In this document: one piece after another, positions 7,567-25,962 of the stretch
Layout: every line of letters starts with the position of its first letter
Numbering within the stretch: the first letter of the stretch is position 1
Source: Clostridia bacterium
GTDB taxonomy: Bacteria > Bacillota > Clostridia > Oscillospirales > Acutalibacteraceae
NCBI GenBank assembly: GCA_017449935.1
Contig: JAFSYP010000030.1
Span: 1-32,307 of the forward strand
Direction of reading: 5' to 3'
Length of the DNA stretch: 32,307 nucleotides
Made by a program: the position numbers and the translations under genes
The notes under the pieces: generated by a model
Database searches by the model: none
The model's input: the letters and a program-made list of their open reading frames with translations, nothing else
What the model was told of the DNA's origin: nothing

Positions 7567-7589
7567 ACCGGTAAGAAAGGGTGATGAAC

Positions 7590-9830
7590 GTGGAAAACGC
7601 CGGGAAACGATGGGCACGGATGCCGCGTGCGCTGCAATGGTCGCTGCGTCAGTTCGCATGGTGCGGCGCGGGATTTCTGCTGGCACGTACGCGGCTGTTT
7701 GACGGACTGCCGTCTTTTGCGCTTGCGCTCACAGCCGCAGCGCCGGGCGGCAGCGTGGTTGCCGCATGCGCGGGCGCGGCGGCAGGTGCGCTGGCGTTTG
7801 CGCCGGATCTGCTCACGGGATTGACCGGAGCAGCGGCCGTCATTGCGTGCGGTGTCATCTGCTTTGCGCTGCAGGCGATCACGGGTGCGCCGCGCACTGC
7901 GCTCATGTCTTTCTTCATCGCTGCGCTGTGCTGCTGCACCGCGGGATTTACGACGCTGCTGGCCGCCGGCTTTTACCGCAGCGGCGTACTGCTGTATCTT
8001 TGCGACGCGATTCTCGCGGGCGGCGCGGCATTTTTTCTGATGCGCGCCTTGGCGCTCGTGCCGATGCTGCGGCGGCCGTCCGTGCCGAGCGCGGAGGAAG
8101 CTCTGGCCGTGTCCGCTGCCGTGAGTATCCTGCTGGCGTCTGCGGCTTCGTGGACGATCTATGTGTTTGTGCCGGCGCGCGCGCTGGCGGCGCTGGCGAT
8201 ACTGCTCGCCGCGTACCTGTTCGGTCAGGCGGGCGGCGGCGCGGCGGGCGTGCTGTGCGGCACGGCCATGGAGATCGTCTGCCGTTCGCCGGGGCTTGCC
8301 TGCTGCTTCGGCGTCGGGGGTCTTCTGAGCGGATTGGGCAGCCGACGCGCGCGGGCATGGACAGCGGCCTGCATGGCTGTAATCGCCGGCTTTTATCCGC
8401 TGCTGATGCAGACGAACGACGCAGTGGCGGCATTTGCCGAGACATGTCTGGCGTGCGCCGTGTTCTGCGCCGTTCCGAAGCGGTATTTGCAGAAGATCCG
8501 CCGCAAAGTCGCCGCGATCTCGCTGGAGAAGCCTGTTGCAGCCGCGATGCAGAATCGTTTGCGCACGACCTCGCGGGCTGTCTCACACATCGCGCCGTAT
8601 CTGGACGCGCAGCAGCTCCGGCAGGGCAGAGCGCCCGGCACGAAGCGTATGCTCAAACGCGTACACGCGCTCGCATGCAGCGACTGTGCGCAATGTTCAC
8701 AGTGCTGGCAGACGGATGAGCCTGTCGTGACGGATGCGTTGTCCGGCGCGTTTGTGCTGCTGCACCGCAAGCAGTTTCTCTCCCCCGAACTGCTGCCGGA
8801 ACCCCTCGCGTCACGCTGCATTCGCCGCAATATTCTGGTTGCGGCATGTGTGCAGGCGTTCGAGGAATCGTCGCACAGCGCGTCCGTGCCGGACAGCTTC
8901 GCTATTGCCTGCGATCTGCTGGAGGACGCGGCAGAACAATGCGGCGAAATGCAGCAGACGCTTCCGCAGGACAGCGCCGCGGCCGAACAGGCATTCCGCG
9001 CCAATGGTGTGGCGGTGCAAAGCGTGCGCGTGACGACGCTGCGCGGACGCAAGTATCTGACGGCGACAAGCGAACCGTTTCCCGAAACGCTCAGCAAGAC
9101 CGCACTGACCGACGCGCTTTCCAAAATCTGTGCCTGCGCGTTTTCTCTGCCGACCGTCAGTGCGGAAGGCGAGGTATTCCGCTGGCAGTTCGTGCAGACG
9201 GCGCGATACCGTCTGCGCACAGGAACGGCGCAATCGGCTGCGGACGGCAAGGTGTGCGGCGACTGTTTTCTGACGTTTGCGCGTGAGGGGCGGCAGACGA
9301 TGATTCTCTGCGACGGTATGGGCACCGGCAGCGCTGCGGCAGCGGACGCCGAGGCGTCGGCGGAGATTTTTGCGTCGCTTTTGCGTGCGGATGTGCATGC
9401 GGACTGCGCGTTCCGTGTGCTCAACAGCGCGCTGCTGCGGCGCGAAGACGTTGAATCCGTCTCGACGCTGGATATGGTCGTCGTCGATCTGTTCACGGGC
9501 GAGACGACGTTCAGCAAAGCGGGCGCTGCCGCTTCGTATGTGCTGCACAAGGGAAAGGTCGACCGTGTGGAAACGCCGTGCATGCCGGCAGGCATACTGG
9601 CGGAAACGTCCCTTGTGCACACGACGCGCACGCTGCAGAGCGGCGATGTGTTTGTGCTCGTGTCGGACGGCGCGTGCGCCATGCGCGACGATCACATTCT
9701 TGCCGCGCTTGCGGCATTCAGCGGCGGCAGCGCGCAGAAACTGGCCGAGGAAATCCTGCATCTGTCACACAGAGCGAACGGCAAAAAACGTCCGGACGAC
9801 GCCACGGTTCTGGCCGTCGTGGTGGAATAA
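7590..9830 (+). CDS. spoIIE: Stage II sporulation protein E, membrane-bound PP2C-type serine phosphatase
   Basis: About 746 residues, slightly shorter than B. subtilis SpoIIE. It dephosphorylates SpoIIAA to release sigma-F in the forespore and takes part in polar septation. The first ~310 residues are a run of roughly ten hydrophobic helices. A central region rich in Cys (ACSDCAQCSQCW) follows, then a C-terminal PP2C domain with LCDGMGTGSAA (near 575), VVVDLFTGETTFSKAGAA, VLVSDGA and RPDDATVLAVVV. The GTG at 7590 sits 9 nt after AAAGG (7576-7580); GTG 7581 and ATG 7584 are in frame but too close to that site. It is transcribed alone, divergent from rlmB and convergent with ymdB. Its presence implies the organism can make endospores. 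Confidence 0.93.
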   Translation: MENAGKRWARMPRALQWSLRQFAWCGAGFLLARTRLFDGLPSFALALTAAAPGGSVVAACAGAAAGALAFAPDLLTGLTGAAAVIACGVICFALQAITGAPRTALMSFFIAALCCCTAGFTTLLAAGFYRSGVLLYLCDAILAGGAAFFLMRALALVPMLRRPSVPSAEEALAVSAAVSILLASAASWTIYVFVPARALAALAILLAAYLFGQAGGGAAGVLCGTAMEIVCRSPGLACCFGVGGLLSGLGSRRARAWTAACMAVIAGFYPLLMQTNDAVAAFAETCLACAVFCAVPKRYLQKIRRKVAAISLEKPVAAAMQNRLRTTSRAVSHIAPYLDAQQLRQGRAPGTKRMLKRVHALACSDCAQCSQCWQTDEPVVTDALSGAFVLLHRKQFLSPELLPEPLASRCIRRNILVAACVQAFEESSHSASVPDSFAIACDLLEDAAEQCGEMQQTLPQDSAAAEQAFRANGVAVQSVRVTTLRGRKYLTATSEPFPETLSKTALTDALSKICACAFSLPTVSAEGEVFRWQFVQTARYRLRTGTAQSAADGKVCGDCFLTFAREGRQTMILCDGMGTGSAAAADAEASAEIFASLLRADVHADCAFRVLNSALLRREDVESVSTLDMVVVDLFTGETTFSKAGAAASYVLHKGKVDRVETPCMPAGILAETSLVHTTRTLQSGDVFVLVSDGACAMRDDHILAALAAFSGGSAQKLAEEILHLSHRANGKKRPDDATVLAVVVE

Positions 9831-17351: not shown

Positions 17352-17912
17352 CTATTCCTTCAGAAGCGCCAGCGCTTCCGCACGCGTGCGCGCGTCGCTG
17401 CGCATTACGCCGCGCAGCGCGGAGGTACGCGTTTCGCTGCCCGCGGCACGCGCGCCGCGCATGGTCATGCACAGATGCTGCGCCTCGATCACGACCGCCA
17501 CGCCCATAGGCGACAGCTCCTCGTACAGAAAGTCCGCGATCTGCGCCGTCAGCCGTTCCTGAAGCTGCGGGCGCTTGGCGAACGTCCCGACGATCCGCGC
17601 CAGCTTGGACAGGCCGATCACCTTGCCGTTCTGCGGGATATACGCGATATGCGCCTTGCCCATGAAGGGGATCAGGTGATGCTCGCACATGGAGTACAGC
17701 GGGATGTCCCGCACGATCACCATTTCGTTGCCGTTCGGCTCGTCGAAGATCTTCAGATGCTGCCGCGGGTCCTCCTCCAGTCCGGCGAAGATCTCCGCAT
17801 ACATCCGCGCCACACGCGCCGGCGTCTCGACCAGTCCCTCGCGGTCGGGGTCCTCGCCGATGGCTTCCAGAATGTCGCGCACCGCCTGTTCAATTTTCGG
17901 TATGTTCATCAT
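17352..17912 (-). CDS. folE: GTP cyclohydrolase I
   Basis: 186 residues, full length. It converts GTP to dihydroneopterin triphosphate, the first step of folate (and tetrahydropterin) synthesis, as a zinc-dependent decamer. Zinc and catalytic residues are visible in [11 protein letters not shown] (C76, H78, H79) and QHLCMTMRG (C148), with PARVARMY and GLSKLARIV elsewhere. The tandem ATGs at 17912/17909 follow AAGGCGGTGA, a near-ideal ribosome site; GTG 17918 is too close to it. The start lies within the 3' end of the upstream transglutaminase gene (23-bp overlap), tying folate synthesis to the envelope genes of the same operon. Confidence 0.95.
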
Positions 17913-19077
17913 CGTCACCGCCTTGTACTTCCAAAATGATCTCTATTCGGTTGTCCGCGTCCGTGTTATAGTACGAAACGCGATCCGTCGCAAATTCCCG
18001 GCTCGTCTTTTTGGCGATCTGCTTGAGCAGCGCATAGATCTCCTCCTGCTCGAAGAGCTTCTGCTGCGCGCTTTTATACGATTCGGCGTCGGCAAACTGC
18101 AGCTCAAACCCGTCGCTGCCGTCCGAGATAATGCGTGATGCATACGTCGCAGCGCGTTTTTTCTCCGCGTCGCCGAACGATTTGAAGAGGAGCTTTTCGT
18201 GCACGAAGAAATTGTCCGCCGTCGCCGTGCATTCGACGAGCGCGTCAAAGTCCGCGTGTGTTTTTTTGATCTGCGCGTCCGTGACGTTGAAATAGGTGTA
18301 GCGGATCATGCTGCCGCCGTTCTCCATGACCGGATCGTCCCACGTCAGATCGAGATGATACCATTCGCCGTCCAGCTGCACCACGTTCCACATGTGGCTC
18401 TGCGTCCGGCTGCCGGGCGGCGTGGAGCTGCCGTGCACCACGAAGCAGGGTATGCCCAGCAGATCGAGCAGATACTTGGCCGTCTTGGCATATCCCTCGC
18501 AGGCGGCGTTTTCTCCGACCAGCGCGCCGTAGATGGTGTTCTTGAAGTTGTTGCCTTCGATGTCGGAATAGCCGCACAGCGCGATCAGACTGTCATGGAC
18601 GACGCGTTCGCGCTCGAACGCCGTCGACTGCGCGTTCGCTTTGGCCACGATACCCTCCGCCACCTCGGTGCATCTGCGGAACACAGCGGCGTAATCCTCC
18701 GCGTTCATGCGGTAGGACGGATAAAAATACGTGCGCTTCTTGCTCTGCCGCATCGTCGTGCCGTTGTTCAGGAAGAACAGCGTCGGGTTGTCGTACAGCA
18801 GCGCGCTGTACATCCGGCTGAGCTCCTCCTGCGTCATCTTCGGCACCTCGATGGATTGCGGGAAATCCGTCACCGCGGAAAGCACGGCGTTGTACGCGGC
18901 CTTCTCCGTGTCGTTCAGCAGCTCGAAGTAGTGCTTATGGGGACTGCCGATCTCCAGCGTCCGCGTGTCGGCCTGAAACTCCGGCGCATTGTCCGGAAGC
19001 AAGGCGCAGCCGCACGTTCCCAAAGCAACCAGCGCCGCCAGGCACAGGCAGAAAACGCCTCGGAACACTTTCTTCAC
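17890..19077 (-). CDS. Exported transglutaminase-like protein, probable lipoprotein
   Basis: 395 residues. The N-terminus (MKKVFRG, hydrophobic core, TCGC at 21-24) looks like a lipoprotein signal, though the lipobox is not ideal. A transglutaminase-like (papain-fold) domain follows, with a readable triad: Cys in [13 protein letters not shown] (C193), His in [17 protein letters not shown] (H228) and Asp in LTWDD (D243). Bacterial proteins of this kind are often surface peptidases or crosslinking enzymes of the cell envelope; the substrate is unknown. The start is GTG 19077, overlapping the stop of the LCP gene (GTGA) with GGAGGAGG upstream. The polar C-terminus after ~300 has no recognised domain. 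Confidence 0.85.
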
Positions 19078-19943
19078 CGCTGCACCTCCTCCTTTGGAAT
19101 GATCCGGAAATACTGGATGTCCTGCACTTCAAACGGATTACGCTGCATATATTCGAGCATATTCCCGGATTTCTTGAAATCCATGACGGAGATGTCGCTC
19201 GTCAGCGTGCCGATCAGCGAAGAATACAGATTGTCCTTCTTTTCCAGATTTTTTTCCGTGATGTACTGCAAGAACATCTCGCCGACGGCGCGCGCCTGCA
19301 TTTGCAGACCTTCCTCGCCGATCGCGCCGCAGTACCGCATATATTTCAGAAGATCGTCGCCGCGCAGCTTCTGCTCGCCCTCGATGAGCACGATGGCAAA
19401 GTCCTCGCCGCGGTAATTGATCTGCTTCGGGAAGGACAGCACGATCGGTCCCATGGAATTGACGGCGCGCTTGAACGTGTTGTCGTCGGAGGCGATGTAG
19501 CGGTCGATGTGGATGCCGCTGATCTTCTCGACGGCGCGGATGAGCTGCTTGACGCCGCCGGACTGGTAATGCTCCAGAAAGCTGCCGAAGCGCTCGCCCG
19601 TATTCACGCCCTCTCGCGGGGAAAACGCGCAGACGGAATACAGCTTCTCATCAAAGTTGATCTGCACCACGCAGAGCATCCGGATGTCCGTCTTTTCCGG
19701 CGTCGCGCACAAAAGCAGCAGATTCTTGACGCCGGACACGTCGGCAAGCGGCTGCGTGCTGTCCGTTTCCGTCTGTGTTTCGGTCGTCTCCTTCCGGGAA
19801 AAGCCGCCGGAATGCAGGCCGATATAGACCGCGCTCACAGCCAAAAACAGCACGAGGAACACGGACGCCGCGCCGAGAAAGCGCACCGATCTGCGTCGTA
19901 TAAGCTGCTGAAGGGATTGCAGCATTTGTAAAACGGTCTGCAT
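19074..19943 (-). CDS. LytR-CpsA-Psr (LCP)-family membrane protein, atypical
   Basis: 289 residues with a single N-terminal transmembrane helix (about 21-43), the remainder outside the cell. LCP proteins attach teichoic acids or capsule to peptidoglycan. Family pattern: TDIRMLCVVQINF...LYSVCAFSPRE (cf. TDTMMLVSI...SIPRD), YQSGGVKQLIRAVEKISGIHIDRYI, then LRGDDLLKYMRY. The usual C-terminal R-x-R...GR-x-x-RQ arginines that contact the polyprenyl pyrophosphate head appear replaced (MRYCGAIGEEGLQMQAR). It may therefore be a non-enzymatic or divergent member. ATG 19943 lies 5 bp after the amylase stop with GTGAGG just upstream; longer in-frame starts would overlap the amylase. Confidence 0.75.
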   Translation of the reverse strand: MQTVLQMLQSLQQLIRRRSVRFLGAASVFLVLFLAVSAVYIGLHSGGFSRKETTETQTETDSTQPLADVSGVKNLLLLCATPEKTDIRMLCVVQINFDEKLYSVCAFSPREGVNTGERFGSFLEHYQSGGVKQLIRAVEKISGIHIDRYIASDDNTFKRAVNSMGPIVLSFPKQINYRGEDFAIVLIEGEQKLRGDDLLKYMRYCGAIGEEGLQMQARAVGEMFLQYITEKNLEKKDNLYSSLIGTLTSDISVMDFKKSGNMLEYMQRNPFEVQDIQYFRIIPKEEVQR

Positions 19944-19948
19944 GATCC

Positions 19949-21802
19949 TCACTCTCCGTCCACCAATAGTGCGGCGCCGCAAGCGTCCAGACGCACGGCG
20001 CCCCCGTTCGGGCGGCTGCCACCGAGCGCCAGACGCAGGCTCTGCCACTGCGCGGGAAGATAGTAGTCAATGGGATGGTCGTTGCGGTTGACGATCGTCA
20101 GCGCACGCGAATCGCCGCGCACACGCGCAAACGCGACGCAGCCGAGCGCCGCCGATACGGGAACGAAATCGCCGTCCGTAAAGCATGCCGCCGTACGGCG
20201 AACGGCGCCGAGACTGCGGTAGTAGTCCACAAGCTGCGCGTCCTCGCGCCCCCACGGATAGCACTCGCGGTTGAAGGGATCTTCGCCGCCCTCCATGCCC
20301 GCCTCGTCCCCGTAGTACACGCAGGGAACGCCGGGCAGCGTGTATTGCAGCATCGCCGCCGCGCGCAGCAGCGCCGTGCCCTTTTTGCGCTCGTCGGGCG
20401 TAAGCCGTCCGCCGCCCGCCTTCCACGCAGAGCGCGAATAGCCGCTGCCGACCAGACGCGTGAGCGCCCGCGCGGTATCGTGCGTGCCGATATGGTTCAT
20501 CAGCGTGCGGATGCTCTGCGGCGGATAATTCTCCAGCACGGTCAGCACCGCGTCCATAAAACGCTCGGCGCTGCCGGTCTGCAGAAAGCGCAGGATCGCT
20601 TCGGCAAAGGGATAGTTCATCACGGAATCCATCTGGCCGCCCAGCAGATACCGCCGCCGGTGTCCGTAGCTGATCTTGATGCTCGCGTCCTCCCAGACCT
20701 CGCCGAGCACATAGGCGTCCGGCTTTTCCGCCTTGACCGCCGCGTAAAATTCGTCCAGAAAGGCGTCCGGCAGCTCGTCCGCCACGTCCAGCCGCCAGCC
20801 GTCCGCGCCGAGCGAGAGCCACTTGCGCGCGACGTCCGTGATGTAGGCGCGGTAGCTTTCGTTCTCCTCGCGCACCTCCGGCAGGATGTCGATCCCCCAC
20901 CAGCAGTCGTAGCTCCGCGGCCAGCGCCGGAACGTATACCACGGATAGTAGGGCGACTGCCGACTCTGGTATGCGCCCGTATCCTTATAATGCCCATATT
21001 TATTGAAATATCGGCTGTCGTCGCCGGTATGACTGAATACGCCGTCCAGCAGCACGCGTATCCCGTGTTCATGCGCCGCGTCGCACAGCGCCTTGAAATC
21101 CGCCTCGGTCCCCAGCAGCGGATCGATTGTCTCGTAATCCGCCGTGTCGTATCGGTGGTTGGACGCCGCCTCGAAGATCGGATTGAGATAAATGCAGCTC
21201 ACGCCCAGCGAGCGCAGATACGGCAGCTTTTCGCGGACGCCCGCCAGATCGCCGCCGAAAAAGTCGTATTTGCGGATGCGTCCGGCGCCGTCCGTCTCCC
21301 ACATCGGCTCGCCGCCCCAGTCCGCGCGCAGCACGCGCGAGGCGGGCACGTTCTTTTTCGGCTGTCCGGACGCGCGGAAACGGTCGGGAAATATCTGATA
21401 CAGGATGCCGCCGGGCACCCATGCGGGCGCGCGCGTCTGCGGATCATACACCGTCAGCTGCCACTCCCCGCCGCTGCGGGAAATCCTGCCGACGCCGTTT
21501 TCGGTCAGACGGATCTCCATGCTGCCGAAATCCGTTTCATAAAAAAAACGGTACCAGTACAGTCCGACGGCAGGCGGCGTCCAGACGACGCGCCACCATT
21601 CCTCGCCGTCACCCTCCATACGCTCCCATTCGGCCGGAACTGTTTCCGTCGGACCGGCGTCCTCGTGCACGGCCAGCTGTACGCTGCGGCAGCCGAATTC
21701 CCGCGGCAGGATGACGCGGAACGTGACCGGCTCGCCGACAGGCGCGGCGCCGAAGGGCGATTTATGATAGTCTTTTCTCGAATTATAGGGAATATAGAAC
21801 AT
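19949..21802 (-). CDS. GH13 alpha-amylase / neopullulanase-like glycosidase
   Basis: 617 residues without signal peptide, so probably cytosolic. An N-terminal beta domain (about 1-120, CBM34-like) precedes the barrel, which begins PGGILYQIFPDRF. Conserved regions: LLDGVFSHTGDDS, GWRLDVADELPD with nucleophile D339, VLGEVWEDA with acid/base E368, and MNHIGTHDTAR with D442. It hydrolyses alpha-1,4 (and possibly alpha-1,6) links in maltodextrins, pullulan or cyclodextrins. It fits functionally with MalQ encoded at 2431-3867. The ribosome site before ATG 21802 is poor (GAGGG about 13 nt away). It lies between a 62-residue membrane peptide gene and the LCP gene in the long operon. Confidence 0.92.
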   Translation of the reverse strand: MFYIPYNSRKDYHKSPFGAAPVGEPVTFRVILPREFGCRSVQLAVHEDAGPTETVPAEWERMEGDGEEWWRVVWTPPAVGLYWYRFFYETDFGSMEIRLTENGVGRISRSGGEWQLTVYDPQTRAPAWVPGGILYQIFPDRFRASGQPKKNVPASRVLRADWGGEPMWETDGAGRIRKYDFFGGDLAGVREKLPYLRSLGVSCIYLNPIFEAASNHRYDTADYETIDPLLGTEADFKALCDAAHEHGIRVLLDGVFSHTGDDSRYFNKYGHYKDTGAYQSRQSPYYPWYTFRRWPRSYDCWWGIDILPEVREENESYRAYITDVARKWLSLGADGWRLDVADELPDAFLDEFYAAVKAEKPDAYVLGEVWEDASIKISYGHRRRYLLGGQMDSVMNYPFAEAILRFLQTGSAERFMDAVLTVLENYPPQSIRTLMNHIGTHDTARALTRLVGSGYSRSAWKAGGGRLTPDERKKGTALLRAAAMLQYTLPGVPCVYYGDEAGMEGGEDPFNRECYPWGREDAQLVDYYRSLGAVRRTAACFTDGDFVPVSAALGCVAFARVRGDSRALTIVNRNDHPIDYYLPAQWQSLRLALGGSRPNGGAVRLDACGAALLVDGE

Positions 21803-22033: not shown

Positions 22034-22630
22034 TTACGCGAACAGCGCCCGACCGGAAAGTCCCGCAAAGGCGAGCGAGAGCATCGCCACATACAGGAAC
22101 ATCGCGGGCGTGCCGCGGAACAGCGGCGGGATATCCGGATTCTTTTCCAGCCTGCGCAAGCCGATATTCACCAGAAACAGCGCAAGGATAAACGACAGGC
22201 CCGAACCGAGTCCCGTGCCGACGCTTTGCAGCAGCGTAAAGCCCGCCTGACGGTTTATCAGCGGCACCGCGAACACCATCGTGTTGAGCGCGGCGATGCC
22301 GAGCGTGTTGAAGAACCGGAGTCCCGGCCGCAGCAGCAGCCGGATCAGCGCCACCGTGACGATATACAGCGCGGCCAATACGCCGCCGAAGATCAGGATA
22401 TGCGGCGCGCTGCCGAGCGCGTTGATCTCGGGGATCGCGTCCAGCCGGCGGCACAGCAGCGCCGTGACGGTGGAATAGAACGCGATCATCACCGCGAACG
22501 GTATGAACCGACGCGGTTTTGTGGACATACGGATCGCTTCGCTTGCGCCGTAGCCGCCGCTGAAGACGAGGTTCTGCACAAAGATCATGTACAGCGCCGT
22601 CTGCAGCAGGGAGAACACACTATGCATCAT
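22034..22630 (-). CDS. RnfA/NqrE-like integral membrane protein lacking both cluster cysteines
   Basis: 198 residues with about six hydrophobic helices, the length and layout of RnfA. In Rnf/Nqr, RnfA and RnfE hold a [2Fe-2S] cluster inside the membrane with two Cys each. The RnfA signature NNFVLSRFLGICPFLG reads QNLVFSGGYGASEAIR here, with Ser30 at the first Cys. The second motif (TTNCAVLGVALLN) reads ALNTMVFAVPLIN, keeping Asn116 but with Thr117 for Cys. The downstream SVGTGLGSGLSFILALFLV matches the family well. Start: tandem ATGs at 22630/22627, GGAGGG 7 nt upstream, overlapping the RnfE-like gene by 11 bp. The homology is clear, but canonical electron transfer is doubtful. Confidence 0.82.
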   Translation of the reverse strand: MMHSVFSLLQTALYMIFVQNLVFSGGYGASEAIRMSTKPRRFIPFAVMIAFYSTVTALLCRRLDAIPEINALGSAPHILIFGGVLAALYIVTVALIRLLLRPGLRFFNTLGIAALNTMVFAVPLINRQAGFTLLQSVGTGLGSGLSFILALFLVNIGLRRLEKNPDIPPLFRGTPAMFLYVAMLSLAFAGLSGRALFA

Positions 22631-23630
22631 ACTGCGCCCCTCCTTCATCCGCCGCGTCGTCCGGATCGCCCAAGTCCGCCAGAATGGCGTCCAGCTCCGC
22701 CTGCACGGAAAAATCCAGCGCGGCGAACAGATCGTCCGGCAGCTCCTGCTGCGGATCGTCGTCCGCCTCCTGCTCGTAAAATGCCTCCGCCGCACTCTGC
22801 GCCGTGTCTTCGGGCAGCGTCTGCCGCGGCGGTAGCTCCGGCTGCGGGGCCGGCTCCGGCTCATCCTGCGGCAAAGGCTCGTCATTCGTTTCGGGTGTTT
22901 CTTCCGCCGCGTCCGCTTCGTCCGCCGGCGGCTGAGGCTGCGGCACGGCCGTCTGCACCTGTACGACCGGCGCGCTCTTGCGCTTCTGTCGGCGGATACC
23001 GAACGCCATCTGTACGTTCTGCCGCAGAGATACGGAAATAAACCACTTCAGGAACGCCGCCATAAAGCCCAACATCAAAAATCCGCCGAAGGGCATCGCC
23101 AGTCCGCGCAGCGGCGGATTTCGGAACACGACGAGATCGCCGACCGTTCCGCTGCCCAGAAGCCCGCGCAGGAAGCCCGATACCAGCAGCACCAGAGAGG
23201 CGCCGAGGCCGTTCGCCAGAGCGTCGAGAAAACTGACGCGCAGCTTTTGCTTGACCGCGATCTTTTCGCACCGCAGCGCGACCAGAGAGCTGGCCGCCAT
23301 CAGCGGCAGATACACGCCCGCCTGCTCGCGCAGCTCCGGCGCGTTCTGCTCCAGAAAGAACGCCGTTTCGGCGCAGACCAAAAGACCGATGATGAAATAG
23401 ACCGCCACACGGATGCGGCGCGGGATACGCTTGAGGAGCAGGGACGCGACGCACTCGCTGACGATGAGAAGCCCCGTCACCAGCGCCGACAGCAGCGCGG
23501 ACACATACAGATCCGCTGCCGCCGCCACAGCCGGACACAGGCCGATCACCTGCACCAGCACGGGATTTTGCAGCAGTACGCCGTGCATGAAAATACGCGA
23601 CGTGAGGCTGATCGGCTTTTTCTTACGCAT
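22620..23630 (-). CDS. RnfE/NqrD-like membrane protein with a long acidic C-terminal tail
   Basis: 336 residues. Residues 1 to ~205 are RnfE-like with about six helices, including NPVLVQVIGLCPAVAAA, which keeps the first cluster Cys (C32). The second ligand motif (YIPLIVVNC) reads YLPLMAASS, with Ser115 in its place; a Cys six residues on (C121) might substitute. Residues ~215-336 are an extension not found in ordinary RnfE: Pro/Glu/Asp-rich, low-complexity, ending in a helix-like LDAILADLG (313-321). ATG 23630 has GGAGGG 8 nt upstream; GTG 23639 is too close to it. It overlaps its neighbours on both sides, so D, E and A are translationally coupled. Confidence 0.82.
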   Translation of the reverse strand: MRKKKPISLTSRIFMHGVLLQNPVLVQVIGLCPAVAAAADLYVSALLSALVTGLLIVSECVASLLLKRIPRRIRVAVYFIIGLLVCAETAFFLEQNAPELREQAGVYLPLMAASSLVALRCEKIAVKQKLRVSFLDALANGLGASLVLLVSGFLRGLLGSGTVGDLVVFRNPPLRGLAMPFGGFLMLGFMAAFLKWFISVSLRQNVQMAFGIRRQKRKSAPVVQVQTAVPQPQPPADEADAAEETPETNDEPLPQDEPEPAPQPELPPRQTLPEDTAQSAAEAFYEQEADDDPQQELPDDLFAALDFSVQAELDAILADLGDPDDAADEGGAQYDA

Positions 23631-24615
23631 CGGACGCACCCTCCTTTGCCAAAGCCTTCGCCTTGCGCGCTTTCTTGCGTTTTTTCTCCGCGCGCTTGAG
23701 CCGCACCTCGACCGCCGGCCAGACCGCGTCCGCGATCAGGATGCCGAAGCAGACGCTGTCCTCAAAGTGGGAGAAGTAGCGCAGCAGCATACAGACGACG
23801 CCGGAGAAGAAGCCGTACAGAAAGCGGTGTCCCACCTTCTGCGGCGAGATCGCGGGATCGGTCACAAAGAAGACCGCCGCAAAGATCAGAAGTCCAGAAC
23901 ACAGCTCCATCAGCAGCGAGGTCAGCTGCGCGTTTCCGGCATGGACGCGCGGGAACGCCAGCGCCATGATCGACGCCGCCAGCAGAAAAGCGAGCGTGTT
24001 GACGATCGCGCGGCGGTAACGCACAGCCAGATAGATCATGCCCGCGGCCAGCACCAGCACGCACGAAGCGCCCATCGGGCCGGGGAAATTTCCGATGAGG
24101 ATGTCGAAGATATTGACCGTGTTCGGCCGGATAGAAATGCCGCGGTGCAGCATACCCGCCAAAGACGCGCCCTGCACGTATTCGCTGCCCGTGCCGATGG
24201 CGGGATAACGGAACACGAGATCCGGCCAGCACAGCGTCATAAAGGCGAAGCCCGCCGCCGTGGGGACGAAAGGAACGGAATCGGTGCCGCCGAGCGGGAG
24301 CTTGACGACCGCGATCGCGAAGGCGACGCCGCAGAGCGGGACATAGTAGGGTATGTCCGCCGGAAGCATCAGCGCCGTCGCCGCGCCGATGAACAAAGCG
24401 CTGCAGTCGCTGATGTCGCGCGGGCAGCGCATCAGACGCGCGCCGACCGCCTCGGCCAGCACGCCCGCGGCCATACACGCCAGAATACGCATGAGCGCGC
24501 CGACGCCGTGATAATATACGGCCATGACGCCCAGCGGAAGCAGCATGAGCAGCGCGTCAAAATGGAAGACGCCGCCCGCGCCTCGGCGGATGCGCTGTTT
24601 CTTTTTGGAAGGCAA
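23623..24615 (-). CDS. RnfD/NqrB-like membrane protein with altered flavinylation motif
   Basis: 330 residues with about nine to ten hydrophobic helices. RnfD normally carries FMN covalently on the Thr of an SGAT motif, and the whole complex couples ferredoxin/NAD electron flow to ion transport. Family-like stretches are VKLPLGGTDSVPFVPTAAG, NIFDILIGNFPGPMGASCVLVLAAG and FFVTDPAISPQKVGHRFLYGFFSG. At the flavin site the sequence reads YVQGASLAGM (G149-A150-S151), so Thr is replaced by Ser and the preceding Ser is lost. The start is taken as TTG 24615, 8 nt after GGAGG; the track upstream is antisense to a mecA-like gene. A basic C-terminal tail ends the protein. It is the first gene of the long minus-strand operon. 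Confidence 0.85.
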   Translation of the reverse strand: MPSKKKQRIRRGAGGVFHFDALLMLLPLGVMAVYYHGVGALMRILACMAAGVLAEAVGARLMRCPRDISDCSALFIGAATALMLPADIPYYVPLCGVAFAIAVVKLPLGGTDSVPFVPTAAGFAFMTLCWPDLVFRYPAIGTGSEYVQGASLAGMLHRGISIRPNTVNIFDILIGNFPGPMGASCVLVLAAGMIYLAVRYRRAIVNTLAFLLAASIMALAFPRVHAGNAQLTSLLMELCSGLLIFAAVFFVTDPAISPQKVGHRFLYGFFSGVVCMLLRYFSHFEDSVCFGILIADAVWPAVEVRLKRAEKKRKKARKAKALAKEGASDA

Positions 24616-24708: not shown

Positions 24709-25293
24709 GTGTTGAGGATCGAAGCGCCGCAGGAAAACAGGATCGTCGTCGAGCTCACATGCGCCGATATGCGCGAGCTGGATATCACCTATGAGGAGAT
24801 GGACTACGGCAACGTCGAAACGCGGCGCGTCATCTGGACGATCCTCGACCGCGCACGCGCGTCTCTCGGCTGCGACATCGACCCGTCCGGAAAGCTGCTG
24901 ATCGAGATCGTCCCGACGGCGGAGAGCGGCTGTATGCTGTACTTCACCGTGCTCGATCCCGACCGGCAATCGCCGGGCTGCCGGAGCTTTCTGCGTATCC
25001 GCAAGGAAAGCAGCAGCTTCACCTATGCGTTCGACTCGCTGGCCGATCTGACCGAATGCGCCGTGCAGCTGCGGCAGACGCAGCCGACACTGCCGAAAAG
25101 CAGTCTGTTCCTGCTGGACGGACGGTACCGCCTGCAGGTGCGCACCGAGCTGCCGCCGCGGCGAATCCGCGCGGTGCTGTCGGAATACGGCACACGCTGC
25201 GCCGACGGCGCGCTGTCCGGCGCGTATCTGCGCGAGCACGGCAAGCTGCTGGCGGAAAACGACGCCATCGAAAAGCTGACGATCGGGTTATAA
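24709..25293 (+). CDS. mecA: MecA-family adaptor protein
   Basis: 194 residues, somewhat shorter than B. subtilis MecA (218). MecA-type adaptors deliver substrates such as ComK to the ClpCP protease. The N-terminal segment fits the family: NRIVVELTCADMRELDITYEEMDY, RRVIWTILDRARASLGCDID and GKLLIEIVPTAESGCMLYFTV. The C-terminal half (YAFDSLADLTECAVQL, LFLLDGRYRLQV) corresponds to the ClpC-binding domain. The start is GTG 24709 with AAAGGGGG upstream. It is monocistronic and convergent with rpe: the two stop codons share TTATAA at 25288-25293, leaving no room for a terminator. The substrate here is unknown. Confidence 0.82.
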   Translation: MLRIEAPQENRIVVELTCADMRELDITYEEMDYGNVETRRVIWTILDRARASLGCDIDPSGKLLIEIVPTAESGCMLYFTVLDPDRQSPGCRSFLRIRKESSSFTYAFDSLADLTECAVQLRQTQPTLPKSSLFLLDGRYRLQVRTELPPRRIRAVLSEYGTRCADGALSGAYLREHGKLLAENDAIEKLTIGL

Positions 25294-25962
25294 CGCCGCG
25301 CCGTAAGCACCCTCGGCGATCCTGCGCAGCGAAGCGATCGTCGCCTTTGCGTCCGCGCTGCGGAATACGGCGCTGCCCGCCACAAAGACGTTCGCGCCTG
25401 CCGCCGCCGCATCGGCGACGGTTATTTCGTCGATCCCGCCGTCCACTTCAATATCCGTAGAAAGTCCGCGCTTTGTGCATTCGTGCCGCAGAGCGCGGAT
25501 CTTTTCGCACATATCGCCCATGAACGACTGTCCGCCGAACCCCGGCTCGACCGTCATGACCAGGACCATATCCGCTTTTTCGAGCAGCGGGAACACGGCC
25601 TCGGCAGGCGTCGCGGGCTTTACGGAGACGGCCGCCCTGCAGCCGAGCGCGCGGATCGCGTCCAGCACGGCGGCGGGATCATCGGCCGCTTCGATATGGA
25701 AGGTGATCCCGTCGGCGCCGGCCTTGCGGAAATCCTCCACGTAGCGGATCGGATCGGTGATCATCAGATGTACGTCAAAAAACGCGTCGGAGCATTTGCG
25801 GATCGCGCGGATGACCGGCGCGCCGAAGGAAATATTCGGCACGAACACGCCGTCCATCACGTCCAGATGCAGATATTCCGCGCCGGAAGCCGCCATACGC
25901 GCCGCTTCGTCGCCCAGACGCGAAAAGTCCGACGCGAGTACGGAAGGAGAAATGCGGATCAT
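25288..25962 (-). CDS. rpe: Ribulose-phosphate 3-epimerase
   Basis: 224 residues, full-length TIM barrel. It interconverts ribulose-5-phosphate and xylulose-5-phosphate in the pentose phosphate pathway. Motifs: ISPSVLASDFSRLGDE at the N-terminus, HLDVMDGVFVPNISFG with metal-binding His/Asp, FFDVHLMITDP, MTVEPGFGGQSFM and EVDGGI with the second catalytic Asp. ATG 25962 follows AAGGAG. It is the last gene of the mtaD-ahcY-rpe unit, 22 bp after ahcY. A link with S-adenosylhomocysteine recycling could run through ribose released from inosine, which is inference. Confidence 0.95.
   Translation of the reverse strand: MIRISPSVLASDFSRLGDEAARMAASGAEYLHLDVMDGVFVPNISFGAPVIRAIRKCSDAFFDVHLMITDPIRYVEDFRKAGADGITFHIEAADDPAAVLDAIRALGCRAAVSVKPATPAEAVFPLLEKADMVLVMTVEPGFGGQSFMGDMCEKIRALRHECTKRGLSTDIEVDGGIDEITVADAAAAGANVFVAGSAVFRSADAKATIASLRRIAEGAYGAAL

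Follow-up and report, generated by a model that had tools for sequence, protein, structure and literature searches.

The D', E', and A' genes of a Clostridia bacterium (order Oscillospirales, family Acutalibacteraceae) are probably a vertically kept paralog of part of the Rnf complex, one that has shed its redox cofactors and taken up a new role. They lie on contig JAFSYP010000030.1, all 32,307 nucleotides of which were analyzed and are called the window here; this contig, C114 in the numbering used here, belongs to a draft genome of 2.95 Mb that is approximately 87% complete. The genes are related to rnfD, rnfE, and rnfA. In relatives the set occurs in two versions: C'DEA, with a relative of RnfC (C'), and DEA, the window's version, in which no C' was found. 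We are fairly confident that the set is redox-dead and neofunctionalized. We infer the order of the losses, the assembly of the core, the redox silence of the window's branch, and the new role from sequence comparison. Among the titles and abstract openings listed from full-text searches of the open-access literature, none describes an Rnf paralog of this kind.

Identity of the D', E', and A' genes

Profile searches, solved structures, and a phylogenetic tree identify the three genes as relatives of rnfD, rnfE, and rnfA. All three proteins are over the Pfam cut-offs (Table 1), and their NCBIfam scores come to roughly half of the cut-offs at most (108 against 207 bits for D' with rnfD, 94 against 213 for E' with rnfE, and 44 against 229 for A' with rnfA). 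From sequence alone they also match chains of solved Rnf and Nqr complexes. In a tree of A and E proteins (112 rows; a sample of 43 loci, the window and 42 random draws among loci with both A' and E'), one branch with a support of 100 parts all A and A' from all E and E'. This split shows that the D-E-A assignment is right, and the Pfam, PDB, and tree results together rule out a chance match or a wrong subunit assignment. An original prediction, made from the window alone, had given the order D-E-A at these coordinates with no adjoining rnfB, rnfC, or rnfG, and it was correct on each of these points: none of the three genes adjoins D'E'A' in the window.

The three genes lie head to tail on the minus strand (24615-22034). 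D' and E' overlap by 8 nucleotides and E' and A' by 11, so translational coupling is plausible. The start codon of D' is TTG and is preceded by GGAGGTGA. The Pfam content of D' is PF03116 alone, with no fused nicotinamide adenine dinucleotide (NAD)-binding domain (PF00175). E' has a membrane domain (residues 1-196 approximately) followed by an acidic tail of about 140 amino acids. Proteins of this kind are liable to be annotated as plain Rnf subunits, and counts of energy-conserving Rnf complexes in anaerobes may be inflated.

The genome also has a complete canonical Rnf complex, showing that the D'E'A' set is a paralog. A genome-wide search found a full rnfC-D-G-E-A-B operon on contig C110, separate from D'E'A', and two ApbE genes. 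The four PF02508 genes of the genome are two on C110 and two in the window. Domains that bind flavin mononucleotide (FMN; FMN_bind) are found only on C110, and none adjoins D'E'A'. The original prediction had overlooked this operon, as well as the C' partner that relatives carry at the same locus. Also on C110 (G000:C110:25015-27494), an ApbE gene adjoins a 586-amino-acid frame with two FMN-binding domains, and this is likely a separate flavin-based extracytosolic electron-transfer system.

Substitution rates place D', E', and A' under purifying selection. The ratio of nonsynonymous to synonymous rates (dN/dS) is 0.09-0.16 between the window and its two nearest relatives, the loci L045 and L046 (D' and A' against both, the membrane domain of E' against L046 only), and we read the genes as functional on this basis. 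Against more distant relatives it is 0.11-0.38, with the maximum in the comparison of E' with that of L048. For the genome's canonical D, E, and A, one relative (L081) gives 0.14, 0.08, and 0.02; A' and E' are under weaker constraint than their canonical counterparts. The E' tail is 53% identical to that of L046, with a dN/dS of 0.28. At L045 (7613-8561, and the same in L113), which is of the same genus, E' is in two frames, either from a frameshift or from an assembly error.

Redox cofactor sites

The window's version is without most of the known electron sites. Relatives were collected by an A' search over 60 genomes, from which loci were fetched, and then by a scan of genomes with a D' alignment, from which the best 80 of 147 relatives were kept. 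There are 93 distinct D' loci after leaving out 12 duplicates. The column counts given here drop matches of 100 bits or less; the 12 named duplicates are outside these counts and the locus tally, L197, L198, L199, and L201 are outside the column counts, and the later-fetched L202-L220 are outside the column counts, the D tree, and the locus tally. Residues are numbered as in Acetobacterium woodii, by means of PDB alignments and PMC11889175, except where they are given for the window's own proteins.

Three of the four ligands of the AE1 [2Fe-2S] cluster are gone from the window's set. Both cluster cysteines of A' are replaced (S30 and T117), and E' keeps C32 and has S115 in place of the second; the original prediction had read these columns, and the QGAS motif of D', in the same way. 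Across the family, the column of RnfA Cys25 holds Cys in none of 88 A', that of RnfA Cys113 in none of the 60 DEA A', and that of RnfE Cys108 in none of the 92 E' with a letter there.

The flavin sites of D' are altered as well. The column of the flavin-bearing Thr of RnfD holds Ser in 94 of 99 D' and Thr in one, and the Ala before it is kept in eight of the 99, with the window's QGAS among them. In the window the acceptor is Ser151, and the motif is without the first [S/T] and keeps the Gly and the Ala. The original prediction had QGAS right, but its reference motif, SGAT, is not that of the genome's own RnfD, which has TSAT. The published ApbE flavinylation motif is reported as [S/T]GA[S/T]-like (PMC8238504), so that Ser at the acceptor position alone would not exclude a flavin. 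Most D', however, have lost the remainder of the motif, which speaks against a covalent flavin in them. The riboflavin ligand N123 is kept in 27/32 C'DEA and 3/67 DEA sequences (V117 in the window's D'), and D249 in 31/32 and 48/67, respectively (D253 in the window's D'). The C'DEA version could thus bind riboflavin and, judging from the cysteines of C' described below, iron-sulfur clusters.

The D'E'A' set should not run the canonical ferredoxin:NAD reaction, because B, C, and G do not adjoin it, the AE1 site keeps a single ligand out of four, and N123 is replaced by Val. The original prediction came to this view, and these findings support it. According to the A. woodii work, removal of the AE1 cysteines or of the riboflavin ligands abolished activity (PMC11889175).

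The DEA version also has conserved cysteines at other positions. These are A' C60 (54/60), E' C121 (56/64), and D' C129 (61/67), C185 (58/67), and C289 (60/67); of these, D' C129 and C289 are frequent in C'DEA too. Published Rnf topology places R67 and E115 of RnfE on the cytosolic side and gives the A/E pair a two-fold axis in the plane of the membrane (PMC11889175), so A' C60 and E' C121 would be expected on opposite sides of the membrane. Restoration of the four-ligand site by other cysteines was tentatively rejected on the strength of this predicted placement.

The conserved locus and its two versions

The D'E'A' set is found at a fixed place next to rpe, which encodes ribulose-phosphate 3-epimerase. 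Of the 79 loci with at least 3 kb of upstream sequence, 74 have a co-oriented rpe no more than 3 kb upstream, and in 57 the set is preceded by a MecA-like gene in the opposite orientation. Thus rpe, and less so the MecA-like gene, is a steady neighbor. C' is present in 24 of the 79 loci and absent from 55. The tallies include five loci less than 6 kb long. The assemblies of the relatives are labeled Oscillospiraceae, Ruminococcaceae, Clostridiaceae, or Clostridia, and a few bear candidate names, Candidatus Soleaferrea massiliensis being one of them. No RnfB was found within the cluster at the 93 loci, where the sole match to the B model is a 67-amino-acid frame about 7 kb off on the other strand (L187). 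The canonical G model has no match at the 93 loci; because this model gives low scores to true RnfG as well, it could have missed a very divergent G. Among the later-fetched loci, L215, L216, and L220 have the rpe-linked set and L217 has D' only.

C' is a relative of RnfC with its iron-sulfur ligands kept and its nucleotide-binding loop changed. The C' of L063 matches PDB 7zc6_C at 2.8e-34, and all eight [4Fe-4S] cysteines are kept in 32/32 sequences. The canonical glycine loop (GLGGAGFP) is replaced by a D-E-x-D-G pattern: the first glycine is kept in 0/32 (Asp in 30), the third position in 1/32 (Glu in 30), and the fifth position is Asp in 28/32. D128 and E129 are found in 30/32, where canonical sequences have Gly in 12/12. 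No C' was found elsewhere in the window's incomplete draft genome among the matches listed for the C' model, which comprise RnfC of the canonical operon on C110 (185.6 bits), an RnfC/SLBB-like protein on C74 that matches weakly (39 bits), and a short match resembling ferredoxin on C50 (33 bits).

The D tree suggests that the ancestor had C' and that the window's branch lost it. In this tree of 115 rows, a quick build with several long branches, the 99 D' form one clade apart from canonical D with a support of 100 in the Shimodaira-Hasegawa-like approximate likelihood ratio test. D' is therefore a conserved clade as well as being at a conserved place. Within it, 64 D' without C', including that of the window, form one clade, also with a support of 100. 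The DEA class as counted here also includes L183 and L188, which are at contig ends, and L068, all outside the 64-row clade. The simplest reading of these clades is a C'DEA ancestor and a single loss of C' in the window's branch. L202 and L203, from another family of the order, are without C' and may represent a further loss.

The derived D is common in the family of the host. At least 66 of 200 genomes of this family have a match to the D' model of at least 280 bits, and at least 74 have one of at least 235 bits; both figures are rough. Canonical D scores 227.7 bits in the family (G022:C3) and up to about 275 bits across the order (G589, locus L206), so only the figure at 280 bits is safe. 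The bit score was rejected as a clean classifier, since canonical D reaches about 275 bits and the locus members L192 and L193 score about 210. Over the class, the C' model gives more than 300 bits in three genomes out of 291, each from the same family; G263 (L200) has a true C' too, whose 230.5 bits hide it among canonical C. In a sample of 299 genomes of the phylum, two pass E <= 1e-66, namely the window's own genome and one canonical set.

Neither the Na+-translocating NADH:quinone oxidoreductase (Na+-NQR, NqrABCDEF) nor the two-subunit Nqr/Rnf-like systems match the D'E'A' set. Canonical Rnf (RnfCDGEAB) shares with it homologous D, E, and A, and C in the C'DEA version, in the same relative order C-D-E-A, and the PF03116 and PF02508 models and the solved Rnf chains recognize D'E'A'. 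Unlike canonical Rnf, the set has no B or G that was found adjoining, no full set of AE1 cysteines, little of the FMN motif of D, and, in DEA, mostly no riboflavin Asn; C' is without the FMN/NADH glycine loop, the window's set is without C, and the D' clade is separate. Na+-NQR kept the [2Fe-2S] cluster and the covalent FMNs and gained NqrF. In contrast, the window's D'E'A' set is without three of the four cluster ligands and has no adjoining FMN carrier G. Na+-NQR is the known precedent for an rnf duplicate put to a new use: a published proposal traces it to a second copy of the rnf operon from which rnfB was lost (PMC4014512), and NqrA is described as an RnfC relative without redox cofactors (PMC12174285). 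The two-subunit systems are reported to have a membrane domain that resembles RnfD/NqrB but has no Thr at the conserved flavinylation position (PMC8238504, PMC11334425). In these systems D is fused to an NAD-binding domain and paired with a G/NqrC-like flavoprotein, whereas the D'E'A' set has no PF00175 fusion or adjoining FMN-binding protein and does have E' and A'.

Several loci have other arrangements. L192 (G011:C32) and L193 (G027:C17) have C' and D' only, with no E' or A' seen; their C' has a long charged tail (894 and 784 amino acids), and L193 is beside rpe while the L192 stretch has no rpe. L209 (G039:C12, 4162-11700) has a complete canonical rnfCDGEAB about 0.9 kb downstream of rpe, with an E frame of 486 amino acids, and this arrangement is possibly the ancestral form of the locus. 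L204 (G538:C99) and L205 (G525:C46) have a C-D-E-A set linked to rpe and MecA on which canonical and derived models score about equally. The A of L204 keeps the second cluster Cys and its E has neither; these two loci are possible intermediates. L198 (G042:C33, 5532-9952) and L212 (G519:C5), from another family of the order, have a separate-looking C-D-E-A set without G or B. There is no rpe match in these two stretches, the cluster cysteines are lost at the usual columns, the glycine loop of C is altered, and E has a long charged extension on its N-terminal side. Since the D of L198 groups with canonical D, Rnf may have been reduced in this way on two occasions, in the D'E'A' family and in the L198-type set. 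In L197 (G033:C4, 6324-10369), a 297-amino-acid hydrophobic protein comes after C, D, and G-like genes; the RnfE and RnfA models do not match it, and it is possibly a fused or very divergent E/A.

Possible functions and neighboring genes

Transport through the A'/E' pair is our tentative first choice for the specific job of the set. RnfA/E is reported as the Na+ channel in A. woodii (PMC11889175), and the Na+-site residues R67 and E115 of RnfE, a cytosolic ion pair, are kept in DEA (61/64 and 58/64; R74 and E122 in the window's E'), which makes transport the first guess. A' N112 is kept in 59 of 60 DEA sequences. B and G would have been lost first, along with the NADH site of C, and then C itself and the riboflavin site, leaving a D-E-A core. 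D', E', and A' would still assemble as an Rnf-type membrane core and carry no electrons; the A'/E' pair, whose counterparts form the alternating-access Na+ path of Rnf, would perform ion- or solute-coupled transport no longer driven by redox, and the E' tail would be a cytosolic docking or control arm. The picture as a whole, in which the lineage of a redox-driven pump has become a cofactor-free machine whose core moves ions or solutes under the control of a disordered E' tail, is possible, if rather doubtful. Work on Rnf treats it as an ancient ion pump driven by redox, and which part of it moves the ion is described as disputed (PMC11889175). If A' and E' move ions in a core without most electron carriers, the ion path works without redox; if they move none, the D-E-A core has a second use.

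D' and A' have residues special to the family. F245 of D' is found in 67/67 DEA and 32/32 C'DEA, P107 in 67/67 and 28/32, F135 in 67/67 and 27/32, and Ser151 in 65/67 and 29/32, each in 0/13 canonical sequences. R34 and Y180 of A' are found in 58/60 DEA and in 0/13 canonical sequences. R223 and E237 of D' are near-invariant in the family and occur in two and three of the 13 canonical sequences, respectively; R223 was dropped as a family-only residue for this reason.

Several observations weigh against a set that is free of cofactors and works in transport. The loss of cluster cysteines is incomplete: the column of RnfE Cys25 still holds Cys in 64 of 93 E' (55/64 DEA), and RnfA Cys113 is kept in five of 28 C'DEA sequences and in the later-fetched L202, L203, L204, and L215. 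The sixth position of the C' loop is still Gly in 31/32. The conserved new cysteines of D', A', and E' could hold another cofactor. E115 is kept in only 1/29 C'DEA sequences, and T110 of A' is Ala in 58/60 DEA. In A. woodii the R67A, T110G, and E115K mutants are reported not to grow while E115A grew like the wild type (PMC11889175), so retention of E115 is weak evidence. At L218 (G355:C52) and L219 (G473:C2) there are D' and E' with no recognized A'; rpe in L218 is downstream on the other strand rather than upstream, and in L219 none was seen.

The set might instead be a membrane scaffold or localization platform without transport, with the acidic E' tail recruiting cytosolic partners such as envelope or ClpC/MecA machinery; this ranks second after transport and is somewhat unlikely. 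The DEA tails have a median length of 131.5 amino acids (range 0-330) against 34 in canonical E and 17 in C'DEA, 24% of their residues are Asp or Glu, and many end in a short helix-like motif near the C-terminus (21 of 61 tails, against a mean of 3.1 and a maximum of 10 in 200 shuffles). The long tail on C' in L192 and L193, which have no E' or A', and the LytR-CpsA-Psr (LCP) gene downstream at many DEA loci would also fit. However, the motif was chosen after looking at the tails, the tail evolves quickly while the constraint sits in the membrane domains, and the LCP and amylase neighbors are not universal. It is unlikely that redox activity persists or has been rebuilt, with electrons passing between the [4Fe-4S] clusters of C' and the riboflavin of D' in C'DEA and with the new cysteines serving a different cofactor in DEA. 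The cysteines of C', the riboflavin ligands of C'DEA, the DEA cysteines, the Asp still at 249 in most DEA sequences, and the resemblance of the window's QGAS to the ApbE motif all point in that direction. Against these stand the absence of C' and near absence of N123 in DEA, the absence of an adjoining G or other FMN carrier, the lack of an ApbE-like motif in most D', and the predicted placement of A' C60 and E' C121 at opposite faces.

The set may instead act on the cell's canonical Rnf as a partner or regulator, for example as a decoy core with RnfB, RnfC, or RnfG as a binding partner, which we consider quite improbable. An A' match at or below 1e-39 is found in 18 genomes, the window's own included, and every one of them has rnfB over the cut-off, but so do 48 of the 60 genomes anyway, making the co-occurrence weak evidence, and G021 (79% complete) has C'DEA and no rnfB over the cut-off. 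A decaying remnant of a duplicated rnf operon is hardly credible. Such decay would account for the loss of C, B, G, and cofactor ligands and for the split E' of L045, but the frames of the window are intact, the place of the locus is conserved, there are new invariant residues, and dN/dS is similar to the 0.14 of the genome's canonical RnfD; the pseudogene reading is rejected by the dN/dS values.

The genes downstream of A' do not define the original function. The original prediction had suggested repurposing, for example for transport or envelope assembly, from the operon partners of the set, and the data do not support this argument. Among loci with at least 6 kb downstream, the amylase is found in 27/51 DEA and the LCP gene in 31/51, and both are found in 0/20 C'DEA, so they look like later neighbors rather than core partners. 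A model of the 62-amino-acid protein directly downstream of A' has matches at 33/51 DEA loci, some of them weak or within long frames, and at 0/20 C'DEA; 22 loci have a frame of at most 130 amino acids at 40 bits or more.

Table 1. Genes of the window at and around the D'E'A' set.
Feature	Coordinates	Strand	Matches and remarks
D' (RnfD paralog, 330 aa)	23623..24615	-	PF03116 1.6e-51; PDB 9eri_D 1.5e-22, with alignment
E' (RnfE paralog, 336 aa)	22620..23630	-	PF02508 1e-31; PDB 7zc6_E 3.5e-21
A' (RnfA paralog, 198 aa)	22034..22630	-	PF02508 1e-17; PDB 9eri_A 1e-6
rpe (ribulose-phosphate 3-epimerase)	25288..25962	-	PF00834 1.8e-72; steady upstream neighbor
MecA-like gene	24709..25293	+	PF05389 8.5e-20; divergent from D'
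62-aa protein, one likely membrane helix	21833..22021	-	directly downstream of A'; no Pfam or NCBIfam match
Alpha-amylase-family enzyme	19949..21802	-	PF00128 4e-56; downstream
LytR-CpsA-Psr (LCP) protein	19074..20048	-	PF03816 9.3e-13; downstream

Two further genes of the window were noted. A transglutaminase-core protein (PF01841) comes right after the LCP gene (17890-20048 for the two, minus strand), in the same minus-strand run as D'E'A'. A SpoIIE-family gene (PF07228, PF19732) is found at 7581-9830 on the plus strand, suggesting that the host is probably a spore former.

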